The position numbers and the translations under genes are program-made. Positions 2,530 through 44,335 of a DNA stretch of 54,061 bases are shown piece by piece. This DNA comes from Candidatus Poseidoniales archaeon (GTDB taxonomy: Archaea; Thermoplasmatota; Poseidoniia; Poseidoniales; Poseidoniaceae). Position 1 is the stretch's first letter, and each line of letters opens with the position of its first letter. The stretch lies in assembly GCA_003602605.1 (NCBI GenBank), contig QQRW01000038.1:1-54061 (forward strand), read 5' to 3'. The notes under the pieces are model-generated. The model had not been told where the DNA came from, did no database searches, and saw nothing but the letters and a program-made list of their open reading frames with translations.

Positions 2530-3288
2530 TCAAGCACGGCCAAGCGTCGTCTTGCAACCAATGCCCCACTCCTGCTCTTGCATTGCCTTTCTGGTCGCAT
2601 CAAGTAAATCGTCCTCTGCCGTTCTCATAATGACGGATTCATGACGCCAAGCCAGCGAGATATTAACGAGATGAAAATCCCAATTTTGCAATTGGATTTT
2701 TGAATTACCAATTGAAATATTCACAATTGATTCTTCAATTGGAATTACGATTTTTCGAGGATTGAGATGCATACCAAGTTGCATTGCTTTTTGCACCGAT
2801 TCCTTCGAAGTCCAAAGGCGAATTGCGTATTCGGGATGGTTGTTCAACCATTCCAATTCCTCGCCCTTCGCCATCATATCAAATGCATTTGCAGCAATAC
2901 CGCGTACAGCAGATTCAGCGTCAATGCCAACAGACCACCCATGTTCGATGACCGCCACATACGCCCAACCTTCAGAATGCCCAATACTGATTGAAGGCAA
3001 CGCCGTGTTCAGCCAAAGGCCTGGAAGGTAAGCAAGCGTTGGAGCTCGATGTTCAGTTCGTCGAACTTCCAGCATCGACGGCTCTAAGCCCCACAAAGTG
3101 AGGGCTTTCGCCAACAGCCAACGGCCGCTTAAATGCTCGTCACGTCGCTTTTCGATTGCAAACGTCGCCACTTCATCAGCAGAAGCCAATGTGACCTCCC
3201 CGAATTCACGCGGCTCAACTGGACAACGAAAACACATTGCACGCACGGGCAATGGATGCGGAGGAACAATCTCCTCAAACGAACTCAT
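2530..3288 (-). CDS. 4'-phosphopantetheinyl transferase (Sfp/AcpT superfamily)
   Basis: Motifs VGIDAE and LWTSKESVQKAMQLG (WxxKEAxxKA-like). ATG at 3288 preceded by AGGTGA, 4 nt after the megasynthase stop. Confidence 0.85.
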   Translation of the reverse strand: MSSFEEIVPPHPLPVRAMCFRCPVEPREFGEVTLASADEVATFAIEKRRDEHLSGRWLLAKALTLWGLEPSMLEVRRTEHRAPTLAYLPGLWLNTALPSISIGHSEGWAYVAVIEHGWSVGIDAESAVRGIAANAFDMMAKGEELEWLNNHPEYAIRLWTSKESVQKAMQLGMHLNPRKIVIPIEESIVNISIGNSKIQLQNWDFHLVNISLAWRHESVIMRTAEDDLLDATRKAMQEQEWGIGCKTTLGRA

Positions 3289-3292
3289 GTCA

Positions 3293-6200
3293 TCACCTGT
3301 CGAGAGTGAACGCATCTTCCTGTGCCACTGGAGCCATGCTCTTCAAACGAAGGCCTTTGAGTGCGAGAACCGGTGCATCATCATCACCAACAATTACAAC
3401 ATCGTGAACGGTGATGCCAGCGTCTTCAACAGCGATGCGAAGACTGCGCATTCGTAGGACTTCGTCTCGCTCCGGAACACGGAGCATGGAAGACCATTCA
3501 ATTCCGACTGGAAGCGAAGAGAAGCCCTCTGACTCCATAGCAACAAGGCCTGCATTTTGGAATCCAGCTTCGATAAGCATTGGAAGTGCTTCGAGCAGAA
3601 CGGTTTCGCCCTGAGATTCGAGAGCGAATTGATCAAGCAGTGGCAGTTGATGACGCATCAGCGCAATACCGTCAGCACCAGGAGTTTGTTCATCACCGAT
3701 ACCTCGCAATACGCCGCCATGAGATTGGAAACGGGGGCCGTGGAAGTAGCGCCGATAGATGAACGACGGTAACTCCGCCAATTCACCGTGAGCGGGCGTT
3801 CCAAGTTGCGGGAGAGACTCAACTTCCTTTTGCAAAAATGGTCCAAGATCATCTCGACTTTCGACAACACGAACCACTGCCTTGTGGTGTTCTCGTTCCC
3901 CGAATACCTCTCCCTTCGAATTGCTTAAATCAGAGACTAAACGGCAAGAAATCCAACTCATTTCACCATCGCTACGTATTAAATCAGCATGGACTCGAAC
4001 AGTCAAATCACCTTTCAGTAACTTCACAGGAAGGCCAAAAGAGACTTCTTCAAAACCAGCAAGGCAGGCTGAAGGCCTCAGCAAGAGAGCATTCTCAGCA
4101 AACATTTCCATTGCCATGACGCCGGGATGATACGGCACGCCTTCGATGGAATGGTCCGATAAGAACGGATGATCGGCAACAGAAAGCGTGGATTGAGTAA
4201 CCAACGACTGGCGTTCATCGACAGAGAGAACTTTGTCAATGAATGGGAATCGATACGGATCCGCAATAATGCTCGCCATTTCTGCAGGGAGACGAAGTGG
4301 AGCTTCTCTAAAAGCATCGAAAGCATCCATAGTTCCAAGGTTGCCACATCCTAAAACACGGCGCTTTCCACCTTGGAGAGCCTCGCCAACAAAGATTTCA
4401 ACGCCCTTCTCCACAGATATTGTATCGATTCCAGCAGCGTCGAACACCGCCTGGAATGAACCACGTGTAGCCATTCCGACATCACGCCATCCAGTCCATG
4501 CCACCGCCACAGCACGGCAAGTACCGCTCGCCGTTAAGCGAGCCATTTCAGCGTCTAAAATGCTGTTTGCAGCCGAATAATCTGTCTGACCATTATTTCC
4601 AAACCGTCCAGAAACACTGGTGAAGCACGAAGCAAAGCGTAATTCGCCTCCCGATGATTCAACGGCCCCCAACAACGATTGCCAGCCGTCAACCTTGACG
4701 CGTACAACCTTGTCAAAGACATTGTAATCTTTCGCAGCTACGAGTTTCGAATCTTCCAACCCTGCTCCATGTACAATTCCAGTAATTGGACGGCCCAGAG
4801 TAGTACCCAACTCTCGAAGGCCATCGGCGTCCATAACATCAACCGAATGGTATGATGCGTTGTTGCCCGTTTCTTCAATCGTTTTGATGGTGATGTAAAC
4901 ATCACGGCTGCGAGAGAATTTTTGCCATGCAGTATTCCACTGTACCATCGTAATTTTTCCAGATTCGCTGGCATCAATCAGTTCTTGACGGAGGGAATTC
5001 TTTCGCTCGGTAAGTTGAGCATCCGACCATTCGACCCAGTCTTTGGTTTCTTCAATAAGCGAGGAGCGACCGAGCAGAGCAAAGTGCGCACCCGAATTAA
5101 GCGAATGACATGCTACGCCGATTATCGATGCTGCCGTCACTCCCGAACCGCCTCCGGATACAATCCAAGTGTCGTCCGACTGCAGTGGAGTAGTTTCTGC
5201 TTCAAGATCTTCGGCAAAGGCCACCAATGCCCAACGACGACCGTCTCTGTCAATTCCGATTTCGACTTCACCACCAATTTCAAACAAGTCTGCAGCGATG
5301 GTTTGTGCTGCTTGTTCGGCATCAAGAATCAGTTCGGGGTGCATATCCAATGCGCGCATTCGCAAGTGGGTTTGCTCAAAGAAGTAGGACTTTGTAACTC
5401 CTGAAGCTGCGCATTGTACGGAATTAAACCGCTCTCCAATGTTACCATGTCGGCCATCTAGTGCTGTCACCGATGCAACCAATCCGTCTTCTCGTCCTGC
5501 AAATTGAGCGTCGAGGCCTTGCAGCAATGAGAAATATCCGTGAGCAGACAATGCAATTTGCGAGGAAGGAAGCGTGTCGTCATTCCATGCCGCTCCTGCG
5601 AGTTTGAGCGGAGCCATGTGAACCAGTCCAGCGACGTTCAGCTGGCGAAGTTCCTTGCATACCTCAGCCATATGCTCGGGATTTGCCGGGTCTGCTCGGA
5701 AAACGGTACGGTCGTCCTCTTCATGGGACGACATATCGCGGATTTCACTTTCAAATCCAACTCGAACCGCCTTCATTCCTTTCGCTTCAACCAGTTTGCA
5801 GAATGCCTCAGCAATGCCCCAGCCGTCATCGGTAACAACCAGTGTTCCGTCGAGAGAAATTGGGGAATTACTTCCTACGCACTCTTCCACTTCGACTTGC
5901 CATCGACGGCAGTTCTCTTGCCGTTCGACAGGCACTGGAACCGGTGAAGCAACTGGTGCAGGAACAACCACAGGCGCCTCAACAACAGGCGGGGTCACAA
6001 CTGCTACGGCTCCACCTTTCATGCGTTGAATGTAAGCGGTGAAATGGTTCAGTGTAGGGTGGTCGGAAAGAACGAACTCTTCATCGATTGGTAATTCGAA
6101 GATATCTCTCACATCAGCCATAATCTCGGCTTGTTTCACCGTATCAATACCAAGTTCACCCTCAAGGTCTTGGTCCATTTCAATGAAATCATCAGGGTAT

Positions 6201-9200
6201 CCAGTATGGCGGACCACCACTTCAATCAGCCGTTCTTGTATCGAAGAATCGGTAACAGGAGGCAACGTTGGAGCGGGTGGGACGGATGCTGGTGTTGGCG
6301 CAGGAACAGCGACTGTAGGCGTCGAGGTTGGACTCGGGACCGGTAGTGAAACCATCGAACCACCTTGCATTCTTTGGATGTAACCAATCATGTGATTCAA
6401 TGTAGGATAATCTGAAAGAACGAACTCTTCATCGATTGGTAAGGAGAAACGGTCGCGAATATCAGCCATGATTTCGGCTTGCTTTACCGTATCAATGCCT
6501 AACTCACCCTCAAGGTCTTGATCCAACTCAATGAAGTCGCTTGGATAGCCAGTGTGCTGAACGACGACCTCAACAACAATCGAGGTAAGGTCTGAATCGT
6601 CCACCCGCAGTGGGGCAGAAATTGGCTTTGATGGCATTGCAGGCGCAGGAACCGGTGCAGGAGAGGCTACCGATGGTGCAGGAGTTGCTGGGGCCATGGC
6701 CACTGAGGCTCCGCCTTGCATTCTTTGGATGTAGCCAATCATGTGGTTCAATGTAGGATAGTCTGACAGAACGAACTCTTCATCAATCGGCAAGGAGAAT
6801 CTGTCTCGAATCTCCGCCATGATTTCGGCTTGCTTTACCGTATCAATGCCCAATTCCCCTTCGAGGTCTTGGTCCAACTCGACAAAATCAGCAGGGTATC
6901 CTGTGTGGCTGACGACAACGCTGACGACCGTTTCAGTAAGCGATTCATCCGTGACGATGGCCGGTGCTGGAACCGGCGCAGGTGTTGATACAGTCGGTGC
7001 TGCGACCGGCGGTGCTGGAGCGGATACTGGAACGGTCAAAGGCGCCGCTGCAATGCCCGTCGACATCTGTTGAATGTAACCAATCATGTGATTCAATGTA
7101 GGATAATCCGAGAGAACGAACTCTTCATCAATCGGCAAAGAGAATCGGTCACGAATATCAGCCATGATTTCGGCTTGCTTCACCGTATCAATACCCAACT
7201 CGCCCTCAAGGTCTTGGTCCAATTCGACGAAATCAGCCGGATAACCGGTATGGTTCACAACCACTTCGATGACAACAGCAGTCAGATCTGAAGCTGCTGG
7301 AGCAACTGGGGCAGGTACTGGCGCTGGCACAGGTGTTGGCTTTGGCGTTGGAGCAACTGGAGCTGGTGCTGGCTCTGGAGATGCAATTTGTGCTGGTGCC
7401 GGTGCTACCGAGGAAGGTTTTCCTTCCCAAGCGGCTGTAACATCCCATGCATCGCCTTGCACACCGCCGTGAAGGTTTTCTTCACCGTCGACATATGCCA
7501 CGAGTTTGTTATCGAGAATTCGGAGAACGACATCATCGGTTTCAGCAAGTCTCCGCGTCCATGCAAGGAACTTTTGTCCATCAATTCGTTCACCAACAAC
7601 TGGCCATTTACGAACCAGTGATAGAGCCATTTGTGAGCCAAATCCTGCTGCAAAACGTAAACCGTACTTGATATCAGGATAATCCCCGCCGGTTGAGAGA
7701 TTCAAATTTCCAAGTTCTGGATCGGTTTCCTTATGATTGGCTATCGGTGGTATTCGACCTGTCTTCATACCGTGGAACATGCTCGCATCTTCAATACCAA
7801 CACCCATTGGATGTCCAGTGAATCCTTTGGTGTTGGCAATAACCAGACGGTCTGTACTCACACCGAAAGTTTCGCGCAGAGCTCGGACTTCAGATTGCGC
7901 TGAACCACCGCGAGCAGGGGTGTAGGTTTCGTGAGAGAAGAACACAGTACTCGGAGCCATTGCATGCCGGTCAATACCCCACTGCGATTCCATAGAAGTG
8001 ATGAAAGAGTCAACCGTTTGTGCGACGTGTTCAACATCGAGTCTTGTACCATGGAATGCAGAGTTAGCGGTCGTGGAACCGAGCAATTCTGCAATTGGTT
8101 GGACACCACGTTGCATGGCTTCAGAGTGGCGTTCAACAACGAAAGCCGCTGCACCCATGCCGAGCACCAAACCGTTTCGGCGGCGGTCGAACGGCAAAGC
8201 AGCCTCTTCGACAACATTGCCAGTAGCCGCTGCACCGGAGGCAGCAAAGCCTCCCCCAATCCATTCCCAGAGATCTTCGCCAGTCACATCGTCAGCAGAA
8301 ATGATGACAACGCGGTCGACTCTGTCGCTGTTCAACCAGTCTTCAGCAACGCCAAACGCTGCAGTGGTTGATGCACAGGCGAGGTTGATGGTCGTGTTTG
8401 GACCACGAATCCCTGTGTACTGTGCGAATTGTGAATGACCCATATTGAGCGTTTGGAAGAGGTATCGGCGGTCAAATCGCCCTTCGCCGTCATCACCATC
8501 GCTCTTGGCGTGTTTCATTGCCATTTGGAGGCCAGGGAAACAGGAGGCAAACACAATTCCGGTTCGCTCGCGCTGATGTTGAGGAACTTGCCAATTGCGA
8601 ATCAATCGCAAACCACCTTTGCCGATTTGTTCAACCGGAGTGAGGGGTATGGCTGCATCTCGAAGTGCTAAGAGTCCAGAGGCGACTGCCAGTTGGGTTG
8701 TGATGTCCCAAGCAAGAACGACCTTGGCATCGATGCCAAACTCTTCTGCAATGTCAAACGCAGACTTAACACCTGCAAGTTGAGGTATGTCGCCAAACTC
8801 CTTGGCTTGTTCCATGTTGACAGAACCATCTCTACCTTTGATGAGGCGAACGATGTTCTTGTCCAGTAAACGTTGCTTGTATTCATCGCTCACTTCCGAA
8901 ATACATGTCTCGCCGCGCACCAAGCGTTCGAAAGTATCTTCCTCGAACACACGCTCCCCACCAGGTAGGCCAAGAGAGACGCCGGTTACCACATATGGGT
9001 CTGCCTTTCGTCGATCAGTATGTGTCGGAGAAGCCATGGTTTGAGGGCTCGATTGGGTTGTCGGGGCATGCGACATCGAAGTCTGAGGACTCCATGATGT
9101 CGGAAGGGCGGTAATCCATTTTGCAAGATCTGCAGCCGTGGTAATCGTGGAGGTATCGAGTGAAGCATCAACGGCAGCTTCCGATGAAACGGTGTGAAGA

Positions 9201-12200
9201 ACCGATGCCACTTGTGCATCGCTCATACCAAGTCCGAGGCGAAGATTGACCATACCGCTACAGAAACGAGCAGGATAACCACTCACTGCTGCAAGGCGAT
9301 CGCCAAGATAAGCATCCATTGCCTTGGCAGCAGCCACTGCCGGATCGACGTTTCGTGGAGCTGCAGTATTGACTTGAACGATGTTCTGAACCGGCGCGGA
9401 GCCGCCTGTTGAGGGCAGAGGACGGGCTCGAGTTCGCAAGTCATCGGCTTGAGCAGTACTGAAAGAAGGAACACTTGAATCACCATAGGCTTCGATTGGT
9501 CCAGCTCTAAACGCTTCAGTAAGCACATGAGAATCTGCAGCAGGCCATTGCGGTTTACGGCCTGCAAGAGCAAGTGTGCCCAACGCACTGAGGAAGGTTG
9601 CGATGCCACCTTGCTTTGGATGGTTGCACATTATTGGCAAATGCGGTTTGTCTTCGAGAATCTGTACGGCAAACATGGTGAGAGCACGCTTTGGACCGAC
9701 CTCGAGGAAGGCGCGTGCACCTGCAGCATACATGGTTTCAATTTGAGTGGTCCACTCAACGGCTGATGCCATCTGAGGGGCAAGTTTTCCAAGAACCCCT
9801 TCCTTCGAATTATCACCTTCCATTGGATAGAAGGTTCCATCGACATTGGCAGTGATTGGAATACGAGGCCAGCGAATTTCAAGACTCTCGAGGAATCTGC
9901 GCAGAGGTTCGTTTGCGGGCGCAACGATGCGGGAATGGAAAGCGTGCGAGGTTGCAAGAGGTACGGCTTGGAATCCTTTCTCCTCGAATTGAGCCATGGC
10001 CTGCTTCACAGGTTCAGTCTCTCCAGCAATGACCGTCATTTTGGGTGAATTCTTGTTGGCTGCAATAACATAGCCTTCAATCGAATCAAGTACGGACGCA
10101 ACTTCGTCGTAAGGAGCCATAATGCTCGCCATCAAACCTTTGTCTTCGATGACAACGGAGCCCATTTCAGTTCCACGTGCTGCAGATGCTCGCAGTGCTC
10201 CATCCATATCTAAGATACCTGCAGACATGAGTGCTGCGTATTCTCCAAGAGAATGTCCTGCGACCATGTCTGGGTGTTGGCCGTGATCGTTCAGTGCTCG
10301 CTCAATGGCCAAATCAGCCGTGAGCATTGCGGGTTGAGTGTATTCGGTTTGTTTCAGTTTGTGTTCAGCTTCAATCCGTTCTTCCTTGGTCAGGTTTGAG
10401 CGTAAAACGAAACTGGACAGCGTTTCGCCCTCCAAGACATCGACCATCGTCTCATCGGCTTGCTCCCAAACTTTCTGGACGGCGCTGTAGCGTTGATGCA
10501 AATCGTGTGTCATGCCAACGTATTGACTTCCCTGACCAGGATACATGTGGGCGACTTTCGCCTTTGGATGAAGAGCTGGGTCATTGGTCAACAGGACGCC
10601 TTGTGCCTGTAGGAAGCCCCACTTCTCGGGGTCACTCATGGCTTTGCTTGCAAGTGCTGTACGCTTATGGAACTCAGCCCAAGAAGTCGCAACGATACAC
10701 ATGCGGAAAGCATCCGACTCAGCATAATCAGATGATGCTGAATCCAAAGCGGACGACAGACGGAGGCCTCGAGGGTCTTCATCGAAATGCAGACCAGCAA
10801 AATCAATCGCTTCTAACTTGGCTTGAAGTGAGGATAGGTCAGAAGAAGAAAGCAGCAAAATTCCACCTTCTACGGCCTTCATCTGTTCATGTGTCATCGA
10901 AGGTTGTGCAGTTGAGTCCAACACCGATGCAGCATCTGATTGAACGGAAGATGATTTTGATTCTTGGGCGTAAGCGGACCAGCGGGAGTCCCACTTCTGA
11001 GCGAGTTCAGCGTGGTATTCAGGTTCAAAACCTTCCAATGCAACGTGATAATTGGTTCCGCCAAAACCGAAAGCAGAAACACCTGCTCGACGAGGGTGAT
11101 TCACCGGACGAGGCCAGTCTCGTGCTTCTGTAGGAACAAAGAAAGCGTTGTTATCCCAATCAACAGTCGGATTTGGCGTCTTGAATCCTGCTGAAGGCGG
11201 GATTGTACGGTGATGAAGGGACATGACGGCTTTGATTAGCCCCGCAATTCCAGCGGCTGCTTTCAAGTGTCCTACTTGAGATTTAATGGAACCAACTGCC
11301 ACGTGGTCGCCCGCTGGCGAGCCATCCCAAAGCAACGAAAGCGTGCCCAATTCGGTAGCGTCTCCGACTTTGGTGGAAGTTCCGTGGGCTTCAATCAATT
11401 CGACGGTCGTGACATCGTACTCCGCCTGTGAATATGCACGAGCAATGGCTTGAATTTGCCCGCGTTGACTTGGAGCAGTAATCCCTTTTCCTCGTCCGTC
11501 CGACGAACCGCCTACGCCACGAATAACTGCATGAACCTCGTCACCGTCTCGAATGGCATCGGAAAGACGCTTGAGGACAAAAGCACCCGCACCTTCCCCC
11601 ATTACGAATCCGTTTGCGCCTGCATCGAAAGGTGTAGAATGAGTGGGAGAAAGAGCACCGATTGCGCTGAACTTTGCAAAGGTAGGAGCATCCATACTGC
11701 GATCGGTAGCTCCAGCAATCATGACATCCACTTGACGCATTTGCAAAAGGCGACAAGCGTCCATGAGGGTTGCTAAAGACGAAGCACAGGCGGCATCCAT
11801 TGCGAAATTAGGGCCTTGTAAGTCCAAAAGGTTGGAAACTCGACCGGCAACGACATTGGCTAACTCTCCGGGCATCGTGTCTTCATTGACACGGGGTGCA
11901 CCGGTGTTGATGGCGTCGACAAAGGCATCTCCGTTAGCTGTTGGCATCCCAAACGACTTGGCTATTTCCTTGGTGTGGTTCGAATAGATTCGAATGTTAG
12001 AGAGGTTTCTGTTTTCACCGCCAAGAGCGTTGGCAAACGCCACTCCAGTACGTAGCCGGTCAATGTCTTTGTTTTCAGCATCGTATCCAGCATGCTCAAT
12101 TGCTGCTGCTGCAACGGTAACTGCCCATTGTTGAGCAAGGTCGATTTGAGTGAGCGTACCTGGAGGTTGTTTCCATCGACGCCAATCGAACTCATATCCT

Positions 12201-12463
12201 TCGACAACTGCACCGATACGTGCGTAGGTGTAGCCTTCCTCGATGTTTCCTGGACCGCCGTCTCGGAAGAAATGGTCTACAGGTCCGATCCATCGGTGTT
12301 CGGGGATTTGACGAATACTGACCTTGGAATCGAGAATATTCTGCCAAAATGAATCGATGTCTGGTGCATCCGGCATCAGTGCTGAAACCCCAATAACAGC
12401 AATCGGTTCAAACGGCCCTTGTTCAAGTCCCTGGACTTCGTTTCCTTTGGCATCTTTGACCAT
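3293..12463 (-). CDS. Multidomain fatty acid/polyketide-type megasynthase: KS-AT-degenerate carrier-KS2-carrier x4-KR-DH
   Basis: KS DAACASS / [11 protein letters not shown] / [25 protein letters not shown] / GHSLGEY / SHAFHS; second KS [10 protein letters not shown] / [11 protein letters not shown]; four [12 protein letters not shown] carrier units; KR [37 protein letters not shown]. ATG preceded by GAGGTGA. Confidence 0.95.
   Translation of the reverse strand: [3056 protein letters not shown]
3330..4330 (-). other. Domain: dehydratase-like double hotdog (approximate bounds)
   Basis: [30 protein letters not shown]; later FHGPRFQ and [10 protein letters not shown]. Confidence 0.75.
4370..5935 (-). 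other. Domain: ketoreductase KR with N-terminal structural SDR-like half (approximate bounds)
   Basis: [15 protein letters not shown] nucleotide-binding loop; [19 protein letters not shown]. Confidence 0.85.
6015..6260 (-). repeat. Carrier domain ACP4
   Basis: [66 protein letters not shown]. Confidence 0.9.
6355..6600 (-). repeat. Carrier domain ACP3
   Basis: [66 protein letters not shown]. Confidence 0.9.
6705..6955 (-). repeat. Carrier domain ACP2
   Basis: [66 protein letters not shown]. Confidence 0.9.
7060..7290 (-). repeat. Carrier domain ACP1 (first of four in protein order)
   Basis: [66 protein letters not shown]. Confidence 0.9.
7590..9005 (-). other. Domain: second ketosynthase KS2 (approximate bounds)
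   Basis: Active-site-like Cys codon 8375-8377 in [34 protein letters not shown]. Confidence 0.85.
9120..9345 (-). other. Domain: degenerate carrier-like segment
   Basis: [30 protein letters not shown] lines up by eye with [30 protein letters not shown] but lacks the GxDS/T site. Confidence 0.5.
9600..10560 (-). other. Domain: acyltransferase AT (approximate bounds)
   Basis: GHSLGEY Ser codon at 10250-10252; [15 protein letters not shown]. Confidence 0.9.
11039..12412 (-). other. Domain: ketosynthase KS1 (approximate bounds)
   Basis: Cys codon at 11786-11788 (residue about 226) in DAACASS, plus both downstream His motifs. Confidence 0.9.
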
Positions 12464-12474
12464 ATCATCTCACC

Positions 12475-13269
12475 TCAGTCGTTCATAATGCTCTGCGGCA
12501 CCATCGTAATCGAATATCCACCATCAACATAGATGCATTGCCCAGTGACGCCGCTTGAGAGGGGGCTAGCTAACCACAAGGTTGCACCTGCAACATCCTC
12601 TTGGCTGACGTTCCTTCGCAGAGGCGAGTTGGCTTCGACATGGTCGAGAATATTGTCAAATCCTGGAACGCCGCTCGCAGCGATAGTCCGTATAGGGCCT
12701 GAAGAAATTGCATTCACACGGTGTCCTTCTGGACCAAGGTGGCATGCAAGTTCACGCGTCCAACATTCCAGTGCCGCCTTAGCCATCGACATTATTCCGT
12801 AATTTGGAACGAAACGGTTTGAAGCCGCATAGGTCAACGTGACCGTTGAAGATCCTGGATTGAGATACGGCAGAGCATGCTTCAAACATCGTTGCAATGA
12901 ATTCGCTGAAATCGTCATTGCTGTATTAATATCGCTGTCCTCTACAAACAAAATTGGACGGTCAAAGCATGCACGAGGAGCAAAGCCAATCGCGTGAATC
13001 AGAATATCTGCCTTCTTGCCGGGGTGGTCTTTCTCAAACGCCTCAAAGAATTCTCGAGTTGTGGCATCTTCCGCAACATCCAACGGATAAAATCCACCAA
13101 TCTGTGGCAACTTATCCTTTAGTTGGAAAATACGGCTCATGAAACGCTTCTGATAACCGAGGTACAGCGTGACACCAGCAGCAGCAAGTTGTTGACAAAT
13201 GGCCCATGCAATCGAGTCCTCACTGGCAACACCGAAGACAAAGGCTATTTTTCCCTGTAATTGTAGCAT
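12475..13269 (-). CDS. fabI: Enoyl-[acyl-carrier-protein] reductase, FabI-like SDR
   Basis: GVASEDSIAWAICQQLAAAG; YGIMSMAKAALE (FabI-type Y-x6-K); NAISSGPIRTIAASGVPGFD; GQCIYVDGGYSI. ATG at 13269 preferred over the ORF-track GTG at 13308. Confidence 0.9.
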   Translation of the reverse strand: MLQLQGKIAFVFGVASEDSIAWAICQQLAAAGVTLYLGYQKRFMSRIFQLKDKLPQIGGFYPLDVAEDATTREFFEAFEKDHPGKKADILIHAIGFAPRACFDRPILFVEDSDINTAMTISANSLQRCLKHALPYLNPGSSTVTLTYAASNRFVPNYGIMSMAKAALECWTRELACHLGPEGHRVNAISSGPIRTIAASGVPGFDNILDHVEANSPLRRNVSQEDVAGATLWLASPLSSGVTGQCIYVDGGYSITMVPQSIMND

Positions 13270-13310
13270 AAAAGCACCTACCCAATGGGTAGGTGTTGGC
13301 CGTAACACCT
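13270..13310 (-). promoter_or_regulatory. Candidate fabI-operon leader with two overlapping inverted repeats (operator or translational switch)
   Basis: Minus strand AGGTGTT ACGGCC AACACCT ACCC ATT GGGTAGGTG CTTTT ATG: a 7-bp and a 9-bp inverted repeat sharing CACCT. The 3' arm contains TAGGTG 5 nt before the ATG. Confidence 0.6.
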
Positions 13311-13384: not shown

Positions 13385-14497
13385 TCACAGGTCATCGAAT
13401 AAATCATCAAACTCATCATTTGATGACGAGCTTTCGTCAAGATCGTCGAAAAGGTCATCGAAATCATCTGCTGATGGTTGCTGAACTGGCTCCTCTGGTA
13501 GGATAATGGGTTGTTGAATTTGAGGCATCTTGTTTTTATTTGGCTTCTTCTTTGTCACCACTCGAATGAGAACGACCAAGAACAAGACAAGTAGGATAGC
13601 TCCACCTCCAATCGAAGCGTACAACAGCGTGCTATCGGAATTCAAGGAATCGAGCCCATCAATACCTGCATTCTTTGATGGTGCTGTGATATCGAGTTGA
13701 ATTGTAATTTCACTAAATGGAGCATCATCATCATCGCCACTTTGAGCTCGGATGATAAGAGGCATACGCAAATCTTCACTCACGGAAGACGGGGCCCGAA
13801 TAGACAGTGTTTTCACACCAGATGTGCCTTGGTAGGGAACATTCTCATTCACCTTTTTTCCACTCGGGAAAGTAAACTGCGCTGCCTCGAGGTCAGCAGC
13901 ATTCACGAACAGGACTTCCAACAAATCGTCGTCATTACCTTTATTGGTCACTTGGAATGAAAACTCAACTTCTTCACTCGTATCCATGTACCGTGTCGAA
14001 ACATCGGAAAGAAGCAATTCGACCATACCGTACGATTCGATAATCAAATCCCCAGAGTATGTCGTGTTAGCGACCCAGGGGCCGTCAGGAAGTTGACCAT
14101 AAGGAAGATTATTCCAAGACTCGACTTTAGCACCAAGTTCAAAGGAATAATCCGTAGAAGCGGGGATTTTAGTTTGTCCAGTGAAAACGACATCAAAGGT
14201 GTCTTCTTCACCTGCTGCAAGAGTGAATGAATCTTCACTAAGTGCCAATTCGACCAAAGTTCCGTCCCATTCAAGCGTTTCCACGCTGATGACTTCACTG
14301 GCAGAAGTTGGATTCGTGACTGTGCACTGGAGTTTCACCTCAGCGTCGGAGGTTGGACGAACATCAAGAACTGGATCAGATGGGCCGCAATCCAATTCAA
14401 CAGCAGGTATTGGTGAACCTTGGGCTGAGGCAGGTAGAACAAGACAAGGTGCCAAGAAAAGACCGAATACGAGACAAAGAATCAGACCCTTTCGCAT
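13385..14497 (-). CDS. Secreted/anchored protein: signal peptide, NEW3/CARDB-like beta domains, C-terminal TM and acidic repeat tail
   Basis: MRKGLILCLVFGLFLAPCLVLPASAQ; TM ILLVLFLVVLIRVV; tail DDFDDLFDDLDESSSSNDEFDDLFDDL. Start trimmed to 14497 because the longer ORF overlaps the upstream gene. Confidence 0.75.
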   Translation of the reverse strand: MRKGLILCLVFGLFLAPCLVLPASAQGSPIPAVELDCGPSDPVLDVRPTSDAEVKLQCTVTNPTSASEVISVETLEWDGTLVELALSEDSFTLAAGEEDTFDVVFTGQTKIPASTDYSFELGAKVESWNNLPYGQLPDGPWVANTTYSGDLIIESYGMVELLLSDVSTRYMDTSEEVEFSFQVTNKGNDDDLLEVLFVNAADLEAAQFTFPSGKKVNENVPYQGTSGVKTLSIRAPSSVSEDLRMPLIIRAQSGDDDDAPFSEITIQLDITAPSKNAGIDGLDSLNSDSTLLYASIGGGAILLVLFLVVLIRVVTKKKPNKNKMPQIQQPIILPEEPVQQPSADDFDDLFDDLDESSSSNDEFDDLFDDL

Positions 14498-14573
14498 GGT
14501 TGCCACCAAACATCGCTGTATGCTTTCACACATGAATGTGATGGCTTTTTGTCGAAGAAAAAGGCTTCTCGAA

Positions 14574-15461
14574 TTACCTAATGCTCGGCCCGTAGAGTTC
14601 TTCTCCAAGATCACGATGTGCTTTCCAGAGATATTCTTCATCCAACCCTGCCTCTAAGAGTTGATGCGTTCTTTTTGGCACCGTTTTGGGACCTAAAACT
14701 GCCCCGGGACGGCGAACATCATCCATATAATCCGTTTCAAGAAAGAAACCGTGTGAAGATGACTCAACTGTTTGCATCAATTCGGAGATCGCACCCTTTC
14801 CAATCAAGACGCTCGGAGTAAGCCCTTGTGTGACTTCTTTGGAAATCGTTGCAGGAGCATAATGACGAACCAAACGACGAGGGGAAAGGCCCGCTTTTTC
14901 AGCCATTGCAGAGAGGTCTCGGTATGTTGAATCGAGTTCACCTTCGACGTGTAGTTGCAGAGCAATTCCTTCTTTTTTCGCCAAGTGCATTGTTTCCAGA
15001 AGCAAGGTGTTGGAGAGTTCCCAAACAGTGTCATCGACAGGCCAGTGCGGCCTACCAACCTCACCGACAGCGTGGGCCTTGCCTTCATGCACAAATTCGA
15101 GTGCAGCATCAATGCTGTCGCGATAATTTTCCACCGCCTTTTCAGCGCCTTTTTCTCCAGATTCCTGCATCCATGCTGCGAACTGATGGGCGAATGCTGC
15201 TGGATGAGGACCGAGAACGACACGAACGCCAAGGCCGACTTTTCTTCGGACTTCTTCCGCCATCTCAATTGTATTCGAATACGTCTCAATGTGACCTTGT
15301 TTTTCAGTAGGCGGGGCAGAAAAGTCTGGGCAGTGTACCAAGACAATGTCCGTACCACCTGCGTTTTTGAAGTCTCGAGCAGCATCCAAGTAACGGCCGT
15401 TTCGATTCAAATGGAAGTGATTGTCGAGAACTGGGCCATCCCACCGTTTCGACCCCTCCAT
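14574..15461 (-). CDS. TatD-like metal-dependent hydrolase
   Basis: DNHFHLNRNGRYLDA, GPHPAAF, AVGEVGRPHW, LQLHVEG: TIM-barrel metallohydrolase-like His/Glu motifs. Confidence 0.7.
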   Translation of the reverse strand: MEGSKRWDGPVLDNHFHLNRNGRYLDAARDFKNAGGTDIVLVHCPDFSAPPTEKQGHIETYSNTIEMAEEVRRKVGLGVRVVLGPHPAAFAHQFAAWMQESGEKGAEKAVENYRDSIDAALEFVHEGKAHAVGEVGRPHWPVDDTVWELSNTLLLETMHLAKKEGIALQLHVEGELDSTYRDLSAMAEKAGLSPRRLVRHYAPATISKEVTQGLTPSVLIGKGAISELMQTVESSSHGFFLETDYMDDVRRPGAVLGPKTVPKRTHQLLEAGLDEEYLWKAHRDLGEELYGPSIR

Positions 15462-15520
15462 GAATAGCCCTCAGCATCATGCGATTTCAACGCATGGGAA
15501 AATCACAACGGTTTGGATGA

Positions 15521-16069
15521 TTAAACCTGCTCAGCAAAGTAATTCTTGTCGGTGAATTGGTCTCTCCAATAGACTGCTGCCATGGCGACCATGTTGCTGT
15601 GACGAGCGTTCGTAACAACGCATCGCCCGTTCGGCCAAACTTTGAGTGTGAGGTTGTGCCGTGAATCCTCAAGAACACTGCAACCGAGTCTTTCGTCATA
15701 GATTGCGGTGCCTGCTCCAATATCACCAACAATTTGAGTGATGTTCAAAGGAACTCCAAAATCAAACGACGCAATCACTGGGCCGAGTTCTGTTTCGAGT
15801 CCTGCGTCGCTGAGCCCAAGTCGGAGCATGAGTTCTTTTGCTGCGGCTCGCGCTGCATCAACACGCTGCGTCCCGTGAACGGTCACACGACCTTCACGAT
15901 CGATAACCAGAGTTGCGCGTGGACGGTCGAGGACTTTGATGACAACTCCACCGGTCTCCTGCCCACCGAGTTGTGAGACAACATCCTGTTGGTTGATAGG
16001 GGAGGGTGGAACGAAGCGAACAAGTTGGTTTTCAATACGAACTTCAATGGCTGCACCGGGCATAATCAT
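15521..16069 (-). CDS. TATA-binding-protein-like protein (divergent)
   Basis: Two imperfect repeats reminiscent of TBP (RATLVIDREGRVTVHGTQRVDAARAAAKEL; NLTLKVWPNGRCVVTNARHSNMVAMAAV; SFDFGVPLNITQIVGDI). Start overlaps the upstream stop by 3 nt. Confidence 0.6.
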   Translation of the reverse strand: MIMPGAAIEVRIENQLVRFVPPSPINQQDVVSQLGGQETGGVVIKVLDRPRATLVIDREGRVTVHGTQRVDAARAAAKELMLRLGLSDAGLETELGPVIASFDFGVPLNITQIVGDIGAGTAIYDERLGCSVLEDSRHNLTLKVWPNGRCVVTNARHSNMVAMAAVYWRDQFTDKNYFAEQV

Positions 16070-16902
16070 TCCTCCTCTGTTTGACCTGATGAGGTCGTGA
16101 TTAAACTAATCTCCTCTCCGTTTGGAAGAGTTTGAAGTGCTTGCAAAAGCGTATTCCGGTGAGGCAAGTACATCACCAAAAGCAGGGTAGCTTCGCCACC
16201 ATGCTCGGCTCGCAGAGATGCCAAAGCCCCACGGAGTCGGGCAGCGTATCGTCGGTCACGGTCTGCTGCAACCTCTGGCGAGACAATCCATTCACTCAAA
16301 TCCCACCATGTGGCAGAGAGAACTGCGGCTGATCCAAAATTTGAGGACACACCTTTCGGTGGTTTTTGCGCATCGAAAATATTCTTCTTGACGCGCTTGC
16401 GCCATTTACCACCAATCGAAATCATTCCGAGCAACTTACGCCAGTGCGATGCTGCTTTTGCTTCTCGAGTGAGGTGTTTGTTCCATTCTTCGTCGTCTGC
16501 TGTAGGCTCGATGAAGAAAACGGGCCGTTCGTGACGAACTGCGTTCCGATGCAATCTTCGAGGCTCTGGGTCTGGGAAACGTCCACTCGTTACGTCTTCA
16601 ACCATCGAAATTTCATCTAAGAAAATCCCGAAAGAACCTCCTGAAATCAAACCATGAGACAGATTTACTCCCGGGGATTCAGCTTCGTCTTTTTCTTCTT
16701 GGACCCATAGATCGACCACATCAGGCGATTCAAGCAAAGCCAAGCCATGCCATTCTTCACGTGTTCGCATAGAACGAGGGTAGACGACCGTCGGCAGTAC
16801 CGAATGAATGACAATCTTCCCCCCATCGGGGTCTTCCCAAGTATGGTCGCCCCATTCCAGTCGAGCGGGCACGACGTTCACACTCACTGGTTGTTGACCC
16901 AA
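16066..16902 (-). CDS. Hypothetical protein
   Basis: 278-aa ORF, translationally coupled to the TBP-like gene; ORF-track start is a TTG, true start uncertain. Confidence 0.6.
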   Translation of the reverse strand: MGQQPVSVNVVPARLEWGDHTWEDPDGGKIVIHSVLPTVVYPRSMRTREEWHGLALLESPDVVDLWVQEEKDEAESPGVNLSHGLISGGSFGIFLDEISMVEDVTSGRFPDPEPRRLHRNAVRHERPVFFIEPTADDEEWNKHLTREAKAASHWRKLLGMISIGGKWRKRVKKNIFDAQKPPKGVSSNFGSAAVLSATWWDLSEWIVSPEVAADRDRRYAARLRGALASLRAEHGGEATLLLVMYLPHRNTLLQALQTLPNGEEISLITTSSGQTEEE

Positions 16903-19900
16903 TCTTGCAGCGCCTCAATGCTCCATCCTTGGTCAAAGTAACCTTGGATTTCATCTTGAGTCCATTGCGGGAATTGTTCCATTGCTCGGGCCATCTCAGG
17001 CGAGACGTTCGCTGCGGGTGCAGGTGGACCAGAAACTGGCGTCGATTGGCCAGGTAACTCTGCATACGCTTTGTCATCCTCATCTTCGTATTCATCGTAA
17101 ATATCACCATCGCCTCCACGACGAATCAAGACGACAACAAGTGTTCCAAGGACTGCAACAGCGATACCCAAGATAGCAAGAACAAGCATAAATCCACCGG
17201 AATCACCCGAATCACTCTGAACTTTGACATTGAACGATTCACCCTGGGATGAACCGTTGTACAGCAGTTCTCCAGTCGTATTGTCGGAGATGAGATAGTA
17301 CATTCCAGTCGTTGCTAAAGTGAATTGCTGCAAGTCAACCTTCACCCACTGCGATGCACCAACCGGGATATCTCCTGTGTCGATGCTTGCTTCGAGTACA
17401 GGGACTCCGCCGTTGATGACGGAGCGAATGTTCAACACAGTTGAACCGTCAAGCGTTCCAGTGTTGAGAACTTCAATTTCAAGTTCAATGTCTTCACCGA
17501 CTTCGGGTTTAGCTGGACTAATTCGGACATTTTTAACATCGAACGAGGCTTCCTCGAAAATCAGCTCATAACTGGATTTATGAGTTGGGTTGCTTGAGAA
17601 GATTGGAGCAATACCGCCTTCATCCGTAAGACCGCCACCAAGCATGGCTTGGGTTCCAGCCGAATCGGTTGCATCAATCCAGAAAACAACTTCGACACCG
17701 TCAATTTGGTCTTCATCTGGGTCGGTCTGTCCCTCTGTAATTGGCCAAAGATCAACACATTCTGCCGAAGCGAAATACGATCCACCACTAGGGTTGAGGG
17801 TGAGTTCTTGAGTCATCGGCATATCACCGAAGGTTGCTCGGTAAACTGGCCATGTGATGTTGTTTGTTGAGTCGGAGAAGAAACTCCAGGCAACAGAAAC
17901 ATCTCCTTGGAACAGTGCTTCCTGCTCTTGGATAACGACTTCAACATCGACACAGTGGTATGTTGAGGTTGGGAGAACATTCGCCAATGGCTCTTGGTTT
18001 CCGTCTTTCAATGTCCATGTGTTCGAAACGACGAGAGGTGCAGAAGCATCGACCCTCAAATTGAAGGTTTGACATCCGTATGCTTCTGAAACACAAATTG
18101 CGGACGATGTATCAACTGCACCCATTGGTAAGCCTTCGATTCCGCCGCCACACTCTCCGTTTGCTCCACCGTCACCACCAGTTGCATCGTAAGGACACAA
18201 TCGGAACGTGTAGGTGTAATCATTAGTTACCGGTGGTGCTGTGATATTGATATCAAAGACACCTCCGGTAAACGAATGGTATGTTACTTCTCCAGGGAAG
18301 GCAATGTAACCTTTGGAACCATCCATAGCAGCAGCCTGCCGTGTCAATTCAAGCGTCAATTCAATCTCTGGAGTGATGTAGACTTGGTCGAGGATTCCGT
18401 CAAGGTAAGCGTATTGTCCTTCAAACGAAATGATATCGCCTGGGTAAACGAAGCCCTTTCGAACGTCTTGAGTAATTGGAGTCATCAAATCACTGAAGAC
18501 CGGTGAAATCATCAAATCATTCGCAGAATCTGCACGGAAATCAAGTTGAATTCCGTCGCTGTAGTACCAATCTTGAATGTGACGTCCGGAAGCTGGTAAC
18601 ATTCTGTATCGAGGGTTGTCAAGGTCCTGCATGTAGAGAACTGGGTTGTTGATCGAGGTTGTAGCACCTGGCAAACCCCAAGTCATTCGGATTGGGAGAT
18701 CAAGATAGAATTCTGTTTCGAACGGATCAATCAACACACCGCCATCCATGCGAAGGACCCGTGGGCCCTCAACATCACCGTCTTCAGCAATGATTTCGAT
18801 GTATGGACTGTTTGTCCATGCCGTGTTGTTACGGGGGTAATAGTAGACTGTCATGTCGTCTCGGTCGTCAGCCATGTCGACACGGAAGTAATCTACGTCT
18901 CTCCATCCGTTGTCGTCCTTTGCCTCCACGATGAGATGGTACACGTTACCGGCGTACATGGTGTGATTCCACTTGCCGTTGTATTGCTGTTGGTTCGATT
19001 TGAGGAAGCGATTATCTTGTGAATCATCGATAAAGAAGTTTCGAATGACTGGAGATTTCGAACTCATAGAAACATAGGTGAAATGGTCGTTCTCGAATCC
19101 AGGAGCACCACCGTCAATTGGGTTTCCTGCCTTGTCAAACCCTTCAATCCAAATGCTGACCTTACCCACTGGGTCTTGTCCAACGTTTGCATAGTCGTTA
19201 TAGGTCGCAGTATAATTCGCAAACGGAGCCTCACCATCGCTGTAAGCGGTTACTGTGATGTATTCTGATTCTTCTGCAAGTCCGTTAGAGTTCGCATCGT
19301 GATCGTACTCAACCCAAACCTTGATGTCGAGCGATTCTGGGGGGTTGGGTAGGTCACTGGCACTCATTCGAATCTGTTGTGTAGCAGAAGGAACAACCCA
19401 TGTGTCGTCAACCATCACTCGCCAGTTGCTGTCAAGCGCTGGGTCGACTTGGCCGTTCAAAATTTCGACCTCAAGCAAATTCGGATCCAGCGTGTCAATC
19501 GAAAGATTGAACGGGATTGCACACTCACTGTCAGGCCGGAATTCAGCCGCAGGACAGAGCGTCTCTCCGCCCTCGTAGCCGTCGATTCGGAATCTGTATG
19601 TGTCTTGACCAGCAGCCATACCGAGGTCAACATCCCAAGAGAAATCTCCACCTGGTAGACCGGAGCGGTTCGCAACAGAAATCCATTCAATCGAGATGTT
19701 GCCATCGGTGTTGTTGACATACTTTTGTTCGAGGACCATGAAATAGCCACTCGGGTCTGGTGAAATGGAGAGGTCTTGGAGTCGGATAGCCCCGTTGAGG
19801 GTGACCGTTTGTCCAGAAGTTCCGTCATCAAGGTCTTGGACAATTCCGATGTTGTTGAGGACTTCAAACGAAGTAACGACAGCGTCGTTTTCAACAGCGT

Positions 19901-27895: not shown

Positions 27896-29236
27896 TTATC
27901 CAAGCAACTCTTCATGCATGTCAATGTATTGAATCGTGATGTCCCGGTTGAGGAAGTCCTCTTCATCCATTATACGCCGGTGAAGCGGAATCAGGTGTTC
28001 AACACCGGAAATAACCGTTTCATCAAGAGCAGTTCGCATGCGTTTGACTGCATCATCGCGATCTCGACCCCAAACCAAAAGCTTGGCCAACAGCGAGTCA
28101 AAGCAACCTGGCATTTCGTAACCAGGGTGAGCGTGCGTATCGACACGAACTCCATATCCGGATGGGAAATGACATTCCCAAAGGCGACCTGGGCTGGGAA
28201 TAAATTTACGAGGATCTTCGGCGTTCAATCGACATTGAATCGCGTGACCGTGCCATACAATCTCCTCCTGCTGTAGAGGAAGTTCTTCGCCTTGAGCAAC
28301 GCGTATTCCTAGTTCCACAAGATTATGGCCGGTGATGAGTTCAGTAACGGTGTGTTCCACCTGTACTCGAGGATTCACTTCCAAGAAGTAAAAATCCCCG
28401 TTCGAATCACGTAGGAACTCAAAAGTGGCTAAGCCTTTGTAACCCACCGATTCAGCACCCTTGCAAACCAAAGCTCCGATTTCTTCACGCTTCGCCTCGT
28501 CCAACCAAGGTCCTTCTTCGACCAGTTTTTGATGGCGGCGTTGAATCGAACAGAAACGTTCTCCGAAATGAATTGCTTTCTTGCCGTCACCTAAGACTTG
28601 GAATTCAACGTGCTGCGCACCTTGAATGTACTTCTCTACGAAAACTCGCTCATCGCCGAAAGCAGACCGTGCACGGGATTGGCACAGTTTGAGGGCGTTT
28701 TCAAACTCGTCGGATTTCTCGACGATTTGCATACCAATGCCACCTCCGCCTGCAGCTGCCTTGATAATGACTGGATAACCGATGTCTTCAGCGAGTGCGG
28801 ATGCCACAGCTGCATCAGAAATCGGCTCGGAAGAACCCTTAGCGGTTGGAAGGCCTGCAGCCTCCATTGCTGCACGAGCCTCGATTTTATCGCCAAGAAG
28901 CGTGATGACATCAGCCGACGGACCGATGAACGTGATACCCTCTTCTTGCAATCGGCGGACAAATGTAGCGTTTTCAGCAAGGAAGCCGTATCCAGGGTGA
29001 ACAGCGTCACAGCCCATCTCTTTTGCGGCATGAATAACCGATTCGATGTCGAGATAAGTATCCAAAGGATTCGCCTTGTAATTCGCATACGCCACATCAG
29101 CGAAACGAACTGGCAGAGAAAGGCGGTCTTCTCGGCCGTGAATAATCGCAGCCTCAATGCCCATGTCACGTAGAGTTCGGAGAATTCGAAGAGCTATTTC
29201 ACCGCGGTTCGCAATGAGTACACGCTTGAATGCCAT
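27896..29236 (-). CDS. accC: Acetyl-/propionyl-CoA carboxylase biotin carboxylase subunit
   Basis: FKRVLIANRGEIALRILRT; VIIKAAAGGGGIGM; FEFLRDSNGDFYFLEVNPRVQVEHTVTE. Confidence 0.95.
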   Translation of the reverse strand: MAFKRVLIANRGEIALRILRTLRDMGIEAAIIHGREDRLSLPVRFADVAYANYKANPLDTYLDIESVIHAAKEMGCDAVHPGYGFLAENATFVRRLQEEGITFIGPSADVITLLGDKIEARAAMEAAGLPTAKGSSEPISDAAVASALAEDIGYPVIIKAAAGGGGIGMQIVEKSDEFENALKLCQSRARSAFGDERVFVEKYIQGAQHVEFQVLGDGKKAIHFGERFCSIQRRHQKLVEEGPWLDEAKREEIGALVCKGAESVGYKGLATFEFLRDSNGDFYFLEVNPRVQVEHTVTELITGHNLVELGIRVAQGEELPLQQEEIVWHGHAIQCRLNAEDPRKFIPSPGRLWECHFPSGYGVRVDTHAHPGYEMPGCFDSLLAKLLVWGRDRDDAVKRMRTALDETVISGVEHLIPLHRRIMDEEDFLNRDITIQYIDMHEELLG

Positions 29237-38287: not shown

Positions 38288-41200
38288 TCATTGCTGTAAG
38301 TCAAGAAGGTCCAGTTGTTCATCAGTGAATTGCATCCATTGGAGCAGCGTCCAGCCACTCGGCATTTCACCCTCAAGCCAAACTCGGTATTGTTCGTGGC
38401 TCCAACCTGCAGGCAATTGAAGAGTTGGAGAACCGTCGGATTGTTGATCTTGAGACACCTGTGTTTGTTCCTCGGTTTCAACTTGCCACAAGGGCGTAAC
38501 TTCTCCTTTCATCTTTCGTCGCCGTAGAGCGGTGATAGCTAGGACGGCCAGCGCAGCTGCCCCTCCGAACAACAACGGCGTAGACAACGAACTTACAGCT
38601 TCTGATTCGTTGGCAGCCACGGTTTGATTACAATCGAAGCAAGGTGGTTCAGGTTGGAGCGTTATGCTAAATTCAGAAGTATTCGATTGTGCCCATGAAT
38701 CGGTGCATGTTGCAGATACGAGCAGCGTAGCATTACTGAGTGCTCCAGTGGTTGGATACTGGAATTGAATTGATGCAGAAGTAGGAGACTGGGGGACCAA
38801 AGAAACCTGCAATTCTGCGAGTATAGTATTGTTTTGAGATATCTGGGCTGTGCATTCAATATCATCCGTACCATCTTGGTCAACAACTGTACCCGTAATG
38901 GAGAGGAGTTCCCCAGCAGATTTGTTTGCCAAAACCTCGACCGTCGTTTGTGGCATTGCATGATAAAACGGTACTTCAAGATTGAAGGAACGAACGAGGC
39001 CGTCGATGTCACGCGCTGTGAACAGGACCTGTCCTTCGCCATCAATGAATGTCCCATCAAGCCGTAAACGGAATTTGTAAAGAGTGTCGGATTCTTGGAA
39101 ATCGGGGAACGAAGCACAGGATGAGATTGAGGTACTGTTCGGAGAGACAGATCCGAGAGTGGGTGCATCAACCGACCATCCAAGTTGGGATAATGTCGCT
39201 TGCATTCTGTCGATTGGGCGTTCCGACTGCAAGTGAACCAGCATGTAGCCGGTCTGTCCAAATCGTAATGAATCGATGGTTCCTGACTCGTCGCATAGAT
39301 GTGCAGCGACAACGATTGGTGTTGTCAGAAGCAACGGCAAATCAAACTGTTGGGTGAACGTAGAACCATGCCGACCGGTCATGTCCAGAGTCAAGCTCAG
39401 TTCCCCAGATTCCAAAGGCACAGACACTGATGGAAGTTCAATCAAAACCGGATTACGAATATCAGAAGCACCAACTGGGATTGTTGTTCGTTCAGCCCCT
39501 GGCCAATCGATATGTAAATCCCCATTGGCGGATGAAAGCGGATCGTCGGAATCAGTAAACACAATGTGAGCATATTCTGCCCCTCCTCCACGAACACTGT
39601 CCAACGCAATGCCGTCCTTGTCGACGACTTCAACGACCGCCGAAGGGGCTCTGTCTCCGACTGAGATGACTCGCGAGTTCAACAGTAAACCGGACGAATC
39701 ACGTACTTCAAAAGTCACATCATCGAGCGCAGTGTTGACTTCTCGCTGGTATTCACCCACATAGCAATGGTGGGTGTTATCGGCTTGTTGCTCGTAACTC
39801 ATGTTGCCAAGAATACCAGCAGACACTCGAAGTGTCGGTTGCTGAGTGGTTCGATTAAAGTCTGCATCAAGTGCACAAACTTTCCAATTCGCCGTTTCTC
39901 CGCGATACATTTGACCCAACGGCTGATAGGGGAGTTGATTGATTCCCGACCAAGTAGGAGAGTCTACACCGCTGATGTGGGGGCCAAACCATTGAGCTTG
40001 TGCATCAACAATTATTGCCACCGACGCATCGAGCAAAAGCCCTTCCTGCATGCTGATATCATGGGCTGTTGCCCGCAAAACCAAAGTTCCTAGTGCGAGC
40101 GATGTTGGAAGAGTGATCGAAGCCTGCCAACGGAGTGCGTCGATACGCCCAGTTGCTTGAGAAAACCATTCAAGGTTGGAAAGATCAGATGCGTTCGAGG
40201 CTACAGACCATTCCAAGTCAACAGAAGTAACATTGACATCATCGGATGCTTCAATGGTACAGATGAAGTTATCACCACGCGCATATACTTGTGAATCACA
40301 ATAGATGCTCTCGACGACTGGAGGGGCGTTTACCCATATTCGAAGAGTGGCAAGATTGTTGCTCACATTCCGTTCATAGGAACCGCTGCTGGCATTTGAG
40401 TAGCGTATTCGCAAATCCATCCACCCCGTCTTTTCAGGTACCACAGTCAAGTTGTAAAGAATCCTTGACCCGCTCAAATCTCCTGCCGGAAGCGATATGT
40501 TTCCGTTGTAGAGTTCGATATTTCCTTGGATGTCTTGTACCAAAAGCGAACCATTGGAAGCGGACATGCCTCGATTCTCAAGAGCAAGTTGAATTTGAGA
40601 GGGTTGCATGTATGAGAAGTTCCCGATTTGTCGAACACCAAAGATGTTGATGTCATGATGGAGGTCTGCATAGGGTGCCATCTTTGGATCACCTACAGTA
40701 ACCCCCATCCAACTTGTCTGTAAGTTCGCAGCAGCATGGGCTTCTGCCAAGTTAAACCCTTGAGCATACATGCTTAGAAGTATACTTGGGGAGCCGACAG
40801 CGGTTAAGTATGGCTCGTAGACATAACCCTTCACACCAGAGACTCCATCCTCCAGCAGATCTGCGACGAGTGACTGCCCGTATGCAGTATTGGGGTTGAA
40901 GGAGCGACCTCCAGTCGAAACTGCCGTTTCAGCAATCGAACCGTTAACCCAAGAATTATGAGGAAGAATTGGATGCAAATTCATCGTATCAAGATAGACG
41001 GAACCGTCGGTCGATGTTGCTACAATGTCAAGTGGGACTCGAACCCGCAGCGAGACTGTGTCGACAGGCGGGCGGAATCGCATGGTTTGCGATTCCCATG
41101 TTGGAGCAAAAATCTTGGATTGAGACTGATTACTGGCGAGAAGTGTTCCGTTTGCATCGAACGAATCAACCTCGATTGTGAAGTCTCCATAGACATCACC

Positions 41201-43540: not shown

Positions 43541-43695
43541 GCCACGGTGTACGAGTAATAGCGTTTAGAAATGCCGCCATTAAGTCACTGCGTCAAAGAA
43601 AAATGTTGAGATTCGGCAATCGTAAAAATCTCAAAATCAAAGGTTTTCATGAGAAAACTGCGAACTTGATAAGTAAGGTGGCCTCTCTTGCTTGG

Positions 43696-44325: not shown

Positions 44326-44335
44326 GGTGAAGGCA

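Follow-up and report, generated by a model that had tools for sequence, protein, structure and literature searches.

The 54,061-nucleotide stretch of archaeal DNA analysed here (Candidatus Poseidoniales, assembly GCA_003602605.1, contig QQRW01000038.1, positions 1 to 54,061; hereafter the window) carries on its minus strand an operon that runs from position 13308 to 2530 and encodes a FabI-type enoyl reductase, a megasynthase of 3056 amino acids and an Sfp-type phosphopantetheinyl transferase (PPTase), in this order. Judged from its domains and residues, the operon is probably a type I fatty acid synthase that works iteratively in Marine Group II (MG-II) and makes straight, fully reduced acyl chains. 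On the general view, the lipids of archaea are isoprenoid, and any fatty acids are made without an acyl carrier protein (ACP) (PMC3533463). The Poseidoniaceae are among the commonest archaea of the surface ocean, and almost all of them share a conserved and complete type I synthase that depends on ACP, a concrete candidate source of fatty acyl chains that bears on their membrane composition.

An earlier reading made from the sequence alone had put this trio forward as a candidate archaeal fatty acid system with a complete reductive cycle, which holds at the level of genes and residues. Pfam found the expected domains in all three genes, and the order proposed for the megasynthase, namely ketosynthase (KS), acyltransferase (AT), a second ketosynthase (KS2), four tandem carriers, ketoreductase (KR) and dehydratase (DH), was recovered as two KS matches, an AT, four PP-binding domains, a KR and a PKS_DH_N domain. 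A full fatty acid synthase cycle of KS, malonyl-type AT, KR, DH and enoyl reductase (ER) is encoded, with the catalytic residues in place at the sequence level (Table 1). KS2 keeps the full Cys-His-His set and is by its residues a competent ketosynthase; a chain length factor (CLF) that has lost its Cys is ruled out by the retention of Cys1363. The Cys, His, Lys and His of KS2 are invariant in all aligned Poseidoniales, in a single sequence from a different archaeal family and in a bacterial one, and its predicted fold, of moderate confidence (pLDDT 73), resembles FabF. The DH assignment was borne out by a predicted model (pLDDT 90) that resembles the dehydratases of polyketide synthases (PKS); a profile search matched both PKS DH and FabZ, and the HxxxGxxxxP and Glu-x3-Gln motifs were invariant across 17 sequences. 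The number of carriers is four in the window megasynthase and two to four in its relatives.

The FabI-type reductase aligns over its full length with Thermus thermophilus FabI (1ulu) and shares the catalytic Tyr-x9-Tyr-x6-Lys set. It matches Pfam PF13561, and differs from bacterial FabI in staying below the NCBIfam equivalog cut-offs (best score 225 against 391 bits) and, presumably, in acting on carriers within the megasynthase. Its true start is probably an internal ATG near 13269, since close orthologues mostly have 263-264 amino acids. In the sister family discussed below it was present in 8/8 genomes with the megasynthase and in 0/16 genomes without it. The PPTase carries the P1b' (hShxH) motif as ISIGH at residue 109 and no match to P0, both motifs as defined in PMC3098273. 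Tight spacing of the genes, with gaps of 11 and 4 nt, had also been claimed: the 11-nt gap between FabI and megasynthase was confirmed, while the 4-nt gap requires the PPTase to start at nt 3288, an internal Met; its longest open reading frame overlaps the megasynthase by 23 nt.

Table 1. Coordinates in the window of the operon genes, the megasynthase domains and a possible precursor gene, with the basis of each assignment
Feature	Position	Strand	Basis
FabI-type (short-chain dehydrogenase/reductase) enoyl-ACP reductase, in trans	12475..13308	-	Pfam PF13561 (adh_short_C2), E 3e-70
Megasynthase KS1-AT-KS2-ACPx4-KR-DH, 3056 aa	3293..12463	-	Pfam domains and orthologues
Sfp-type 4'-phosphopantetheinyl transferase	2530..3315	-	Pfam ACPS and 4PPT_N; GIDAE, WTSKESVQK, P1b' motif ISIGH
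KS1 (aa 17-490)	10994..12415	-	Cys226 in DAACASS, His360 in EAHGTST, His399 in GHLKAAAG
Acyltransferase (aa 631-975)	9539..10573	-	GHSLGE at 736, HAFH at 840 (malonyl-type signature)
KS2 (aa 1171-1650)	7514..8953	-	Cys1363, His1511, Lys1546, His1551
Four tandem acyl carriers	6029..7273 (7073-7273, 6728-6931, 6377-6577, 6029-6235)	-	LGIDTVK motif in each
Region ahead of KR (aa 2151-2430), presumably KR structural subdomain	5174..6013	-	Adjoins KR, conserved
Ketoreductase catalytic domain (aa 2431-2700)	4364..5173	-	Ser and YxxxN motif (YSAAN) at 2612-2633
Dehydratase, double hot dog (aa 2735-3056)	3296..4261	-	His2771 in HxxxGxxxxP, Glu2965-x3-Gln2969
Biotin carboxylase, outside the operon	27896..29236	-	Possible malonyl-CoA supplier

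I infer iterative use, a saturated product, a division of labour between KS1 and KS2, an offloading route and a lipid destination along the following lines. The PPTase would charge the four carrier domains and the malonyl-type AT would load malonyl units, which KS1 and KS2 would condense; KR, DH and the separate FabI-type reductase would finish each cycle, leaving a fully reduced straight chain on the carrier. With a complete reductive cycle, the product is most simply read as a saturated chain. The two KS domains probably divide early from late (or chain-length-setting) condensations between them, and transfer of the chain to glycerol-phosphate or another acceptor would fall to a separate acyltransferase, most likely a membrane enzyme of PlsC type whose gene lies elsewhere.

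The supply of carriers and precursors was assessed across the genomes. A Pfam PP-binding search of 60 relatives found such domains in 38 of them, all within megasynthase frames among the matches listed; in the window genome all four detected domains sit in the megasynthase, and no sister-family genome without the megasynthase had any. One sister-family holder of the synthase (G039) gave no PP-binding match, and its copy is split between contigs. The confinement of PP-binding domains to the megasynthase indicates that no other ACP-dependent synthase is detectable. Malonyl-CoA could be supplied by a carboxylase and carboxyltransferase: every one of the Poseidoniales searched has a carboxyltransferase (60/60), and carboxylase genes directly adjoin megasynthase relatives at three loci (L156, L158 and L164).

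The host is archaeal, as had been proposed. The window genome, of 2.02 Mb, belongs to Ca. Poseidoniaceae (Marine Group IIa), and the archaeal neighbour genes named in the sequence-only reading, TATA-binding protein (TBP), diadenylate cyclase (DAC) and Hjc, were found in the window. Near-identical loci are titled Candidatus Poseidoniaceae and include a closed MG-II chromosome (CM001443.1) and the assemblies AG-461-G23 and AG-404-K16. The AG- prefix of these two assemblies, and titles without the label of a metagenome-assembled genome, suggest that they are single-cell genomes. The operon is complete in CM001443.1 (L060) and AG-461-G23 (L105), and ends at a contig edge in AG-404-K16 (L113).

Distribution was scored with a KS2 search of 390 genomes of the phylum, counted by hand from the rows listed. 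Megasynthase matches were found in 71 of the 72 Poseidoniaceae genomes; four of these were weak, and two of the four genomes hold megasynthase fragments. The sister family (probably Thalassarchaeaceae, going by the literature) gave matches in 16/55 genomes and 5/11 genera (g2, g5, g7, g9 and g21), the match in G259 being weak, and one other family of the class (f3) gave none in this search. The megasynthase is also present in further families of the phylum, and in a scan of genome contigs the best 80 matches were all from Poseidoniales. Far from being a one-off, the system extends through most of one archaeal family and into part of its sister. A virus-borne origin was rejected, as no relatives were found in viral contigs.

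Poseidoniaceae share the gene order FabI-megasynthase-PPTase with several genera of the sister family, mostly beside TatD-TBP; in genus g2 the operon lies at a different locus and its second half is more divergent. Of 13 splits in a megasynthase tree, 11 recurred in a tree of TatD and TBP, and some of the disagreements are supported. Between the window and its closest relative (L002), the ratio of non-synonymous to synonymous substitution rates (dN/dS) was lowest for FabI (0.016), which evolves most slowly, higher for the megasynthase (0.047) and highest for the PPTase (0.13); the overall and third-position GC content (GC3) of the operon match the window. The shared locus and mostly agreeing tree indicate that the operon did not arise as a chimera or arrive recently, and together with the conserved order, the dN/dS values and the base composition they mean that it is old in its order, constrained and mostly vertically inherited, presumably with loss in several genera.

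Where the chain would go was approached through acyltransferases. PlsC-domain enzymes of two clades (a and c) occur in nearly all Poseidoniales genomes, while a third (clade b) tracks the operon in the sister family, with 10/16 synthase-holding genomes against 0/39 without; by genus the counts are 4/5 against 0/6 (p ~0.015, uncorrected for the kinship of the genera). This suggests ester lipids and serves as a lead, not as proof. According to published reports, MG-II has a glycerol-3-phosphate dehydrogenase and is without the enzyme for the glycerol-1-phosphate backbone (PMC6461757), and bacterial-like genes for ester formation have been ascribed to it (PMC6461757, PMC7852524). A more far-reaching version, in which a vertically inherited synthase makes fatty acids de novo that are esterified to glycerol-3-phosphate and end in archaeal membrane or storage ester lipids, is a tentative possibility that I hold to be rather less likely than not to apply in full. 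If true, the most abundant archaea of the surface ocean would carry natural fatty acid ester lipids. The question of a 'mixed membrane' in Marine Group II is reduced to three expressible genes, for which the sister genera free of the operon offer a natural control.

Other observations concern the same enzymes. A clade b PlsC-domain membrane acyltransferase with an HX5D-like motif (WHPSGLID) lies at L177:872-2485 (G000 contig 27) beside a xanthine-dehydrogenase-like operon, and the gene order round it in this contig (G000:C27) contained no further lipid genes. G020, an incomplete genome of the window's family, has a clade b enzyme and no detected synthase. Clades a and c (L176, L178 and their orthologues) are also present in genera in which neither ACP nor synthase was detected, where they may use imported acyl chains. 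A single search of the window's own genome for a wax-ester synthase gave no match, and as the control genomes likewise gave none, this negative carries no information.

Several results weigh against a fatty acid synthase that feeds membrane lipids. All four carriers, and those of many relatives, have the motif GIDTVK, in which Thr follows Asp in place of the usual phosphopantetheine Ser; if the phosphopantetheine arm cannot attach at Thr, the carriers would be inactive. The PP-binding domains of the window megasynthase score above the Pfam cut-off but contain this Thr. In the DH, Glu takes the place of the Asp that is usual in PKS dehydratases, and the operon contains neither a thioesterase domain nor a dedicated offloading gene. 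About half of the sampled sister-family genera are without the operon, which means that it is not essential for the membranes of the order. The clade b acyltransferase is missing from the synthase holders g2, g14 and g17, and the genomes that were counted are not independent of each other. PlsY was absent from all 60 relatives and was rejected as the partner acyltransferase (0/60 genomes); the common bacterial first acylation step is therefore not there in that form.

Among described kinds of synthase, the window system is by domain order closest to the Type R secondary-lipid synthases of Koribacter, Solibacter, Elusimicrobium and Roseiflexus (Shulse & Allen 2011, PMC3098273), which are uncharacterised and whose product is unknown. 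These combine a polypeptide of the order KS-MAT-CLF/KS-ACP(3-6)-KR, where MAT is the malonyl acyltransferase, with a following PPTase gene and in one case an acetyl-CoA carboxylase gene (PMC3098273). The window megasynthase shows this order and is followed by a PPTase gene with the P1b' motif and without P0. It differs in its archaeal host, its C-terminal DH, the FabI gene upstream in the operon and its inheritance across an order, whereas Type R is scattered; it may also differ in its second KS, given as CLF/KS in Type R, which here keeps Cys-His-His. Because the DH and FabI, and possibly the intact KS2, set the system apart, it was not assigned as a member. The sequence-only reading of a layout like that of a polyunsaturated fatty acid (PUFA) synthase, with PfaA-like tandem carriers, was correct in the FabI-type ER and the lack of Pfa partners, but such a layout is not without precedent, which Type R provides.

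This likeness lends some weight to an alternative in which the operon is a secondary-lipid or partly reduced polyketide synthase that skips reductions in some cycles and makes a special lipid, pigment or signal molecule. KS1-AT scored best against polyketide synthases and PfaA, and some genera manage without the operon. However, every activity of the cycle is encoded, including the FabI-type reductase, which is the most constrained of the three genes; the operon is near-universal in one family, while secondary metabolite clusters are typically patchy; and it is without tailoring genes. I consider this alternative unlikely, if the most serious of those weighed. Surveys do no more than count archaeal type I polyketide synthase (T1PKS) clusters, which rank second behind terpenes, or note transcripts of polyketide synthases from Thermoplasmatota (PMC10304266, PMC9902471). 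No description of the operon was found in the open-access literature, subscription papers lying outside the search, so that a prior mention is possible.

The mitochondrial fatty acid synthase serves lipoate, and by this precedent the operon might make a short acyl precursor (e.g. octanoyl for lipoate) or serve protein acylation in place of lipids, in keeping with the lack of a lipid gene in the operon. Carrier-free genera of the sister family presumably need lipoate too, and a PlsC-family acyltransferase tracks the operon, which leaves this explanation improbable.

More improbable still is a Pfa-type synthase of polyunsaturated fatty acids. The host is marine, and TIGR02813 (PfaA) aligns with the KS-AT region and with the tandem carriers (E 8e-274); in Type A/B PfaA-PfaE systems, too, KS-AT is followed by tandem ACPs and KR, with a PPTase partner. 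The TIGR02813 score nevertheless stays below the cut-off (911.9 against 1010.1 bits), and PfaB, PfaC (KS-CLF-DH2) and PfaD are not among the conserved neighbours in the window and its relatives, the rest of the genome not having been searched for PfaD; on these two grounds the PUFA synthase was rejected. In addition, KS2 is fused into the megasynthase, the ER is of FabI type, a single PKS-type DH lies on the same chain in place of a FabA-like pair, and the PPTase lacks P0 and carries P1b', the motif found in Types M-T.

Bacterial contamination or a chimeric assembly, which a relative in Nonomuraea with 47 percent identity in KS2 might suggest, has a negligible probability and is refuted by the presence of the operon in a closed MG-II chromosome and in numerous independent assemblies, by shared synteny, by the megasynthase in ~70 Poseidoniaceae genomes, by archaeal flanks including TBP, and by GC and GC3 that fit the window.

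The favoured reading as a fatty acid synthase can also be set against more distant systems. The ACP-independent pathway proposed for archaeal fatty acid synthesis by Lombard et al. uses CoA-linked steps (reviewed in PMC3533463), whereas the window system is an ACP-dependent type I synthase. The Nonomuraea gerenzanensis megasynthase (L156) and relatives from other families of the phylum (L157-L166) share the order KS-AT-KS2-ACP(n)-KR, and in most of them a DH can be recognised; they differ in frequent N-terminal extensions and neighbouring acyl-CoA carboxylase genes; the megasynthase family is likely of bacterial origin. One archaeal megasynthase of another family (L159:3706-15102, 3798 aa) has a PPTase fused at its C terminus, and directly upstream of another an 840-aa protein (L161:14939-17461) has a FabI C-terminal part and 570 N-terminal aa without Pfam match.

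In the neighbourhood of the operon, a 'Choice-of-anchor T' protein (NF041740; window 13385-14641) lies between FabI and TatD in several Poseidoniaceae and is missing there in the sister family. The TBP-domain gene is clustered with TatD (14574-16902), an arrangement that is conserved, and a 1963-aa protein without Pfam match (16884-22775) stands beside this TBP-TatD-synthase locus, with homologues there in several relatives. Further along the window, a macro-domain gene is followed directly by the DAC domain gene (43603-45184), and a 1750-aa protein with PA14 and laminin-G-like domains (38288-43540) is possibly a secreted adhesin.

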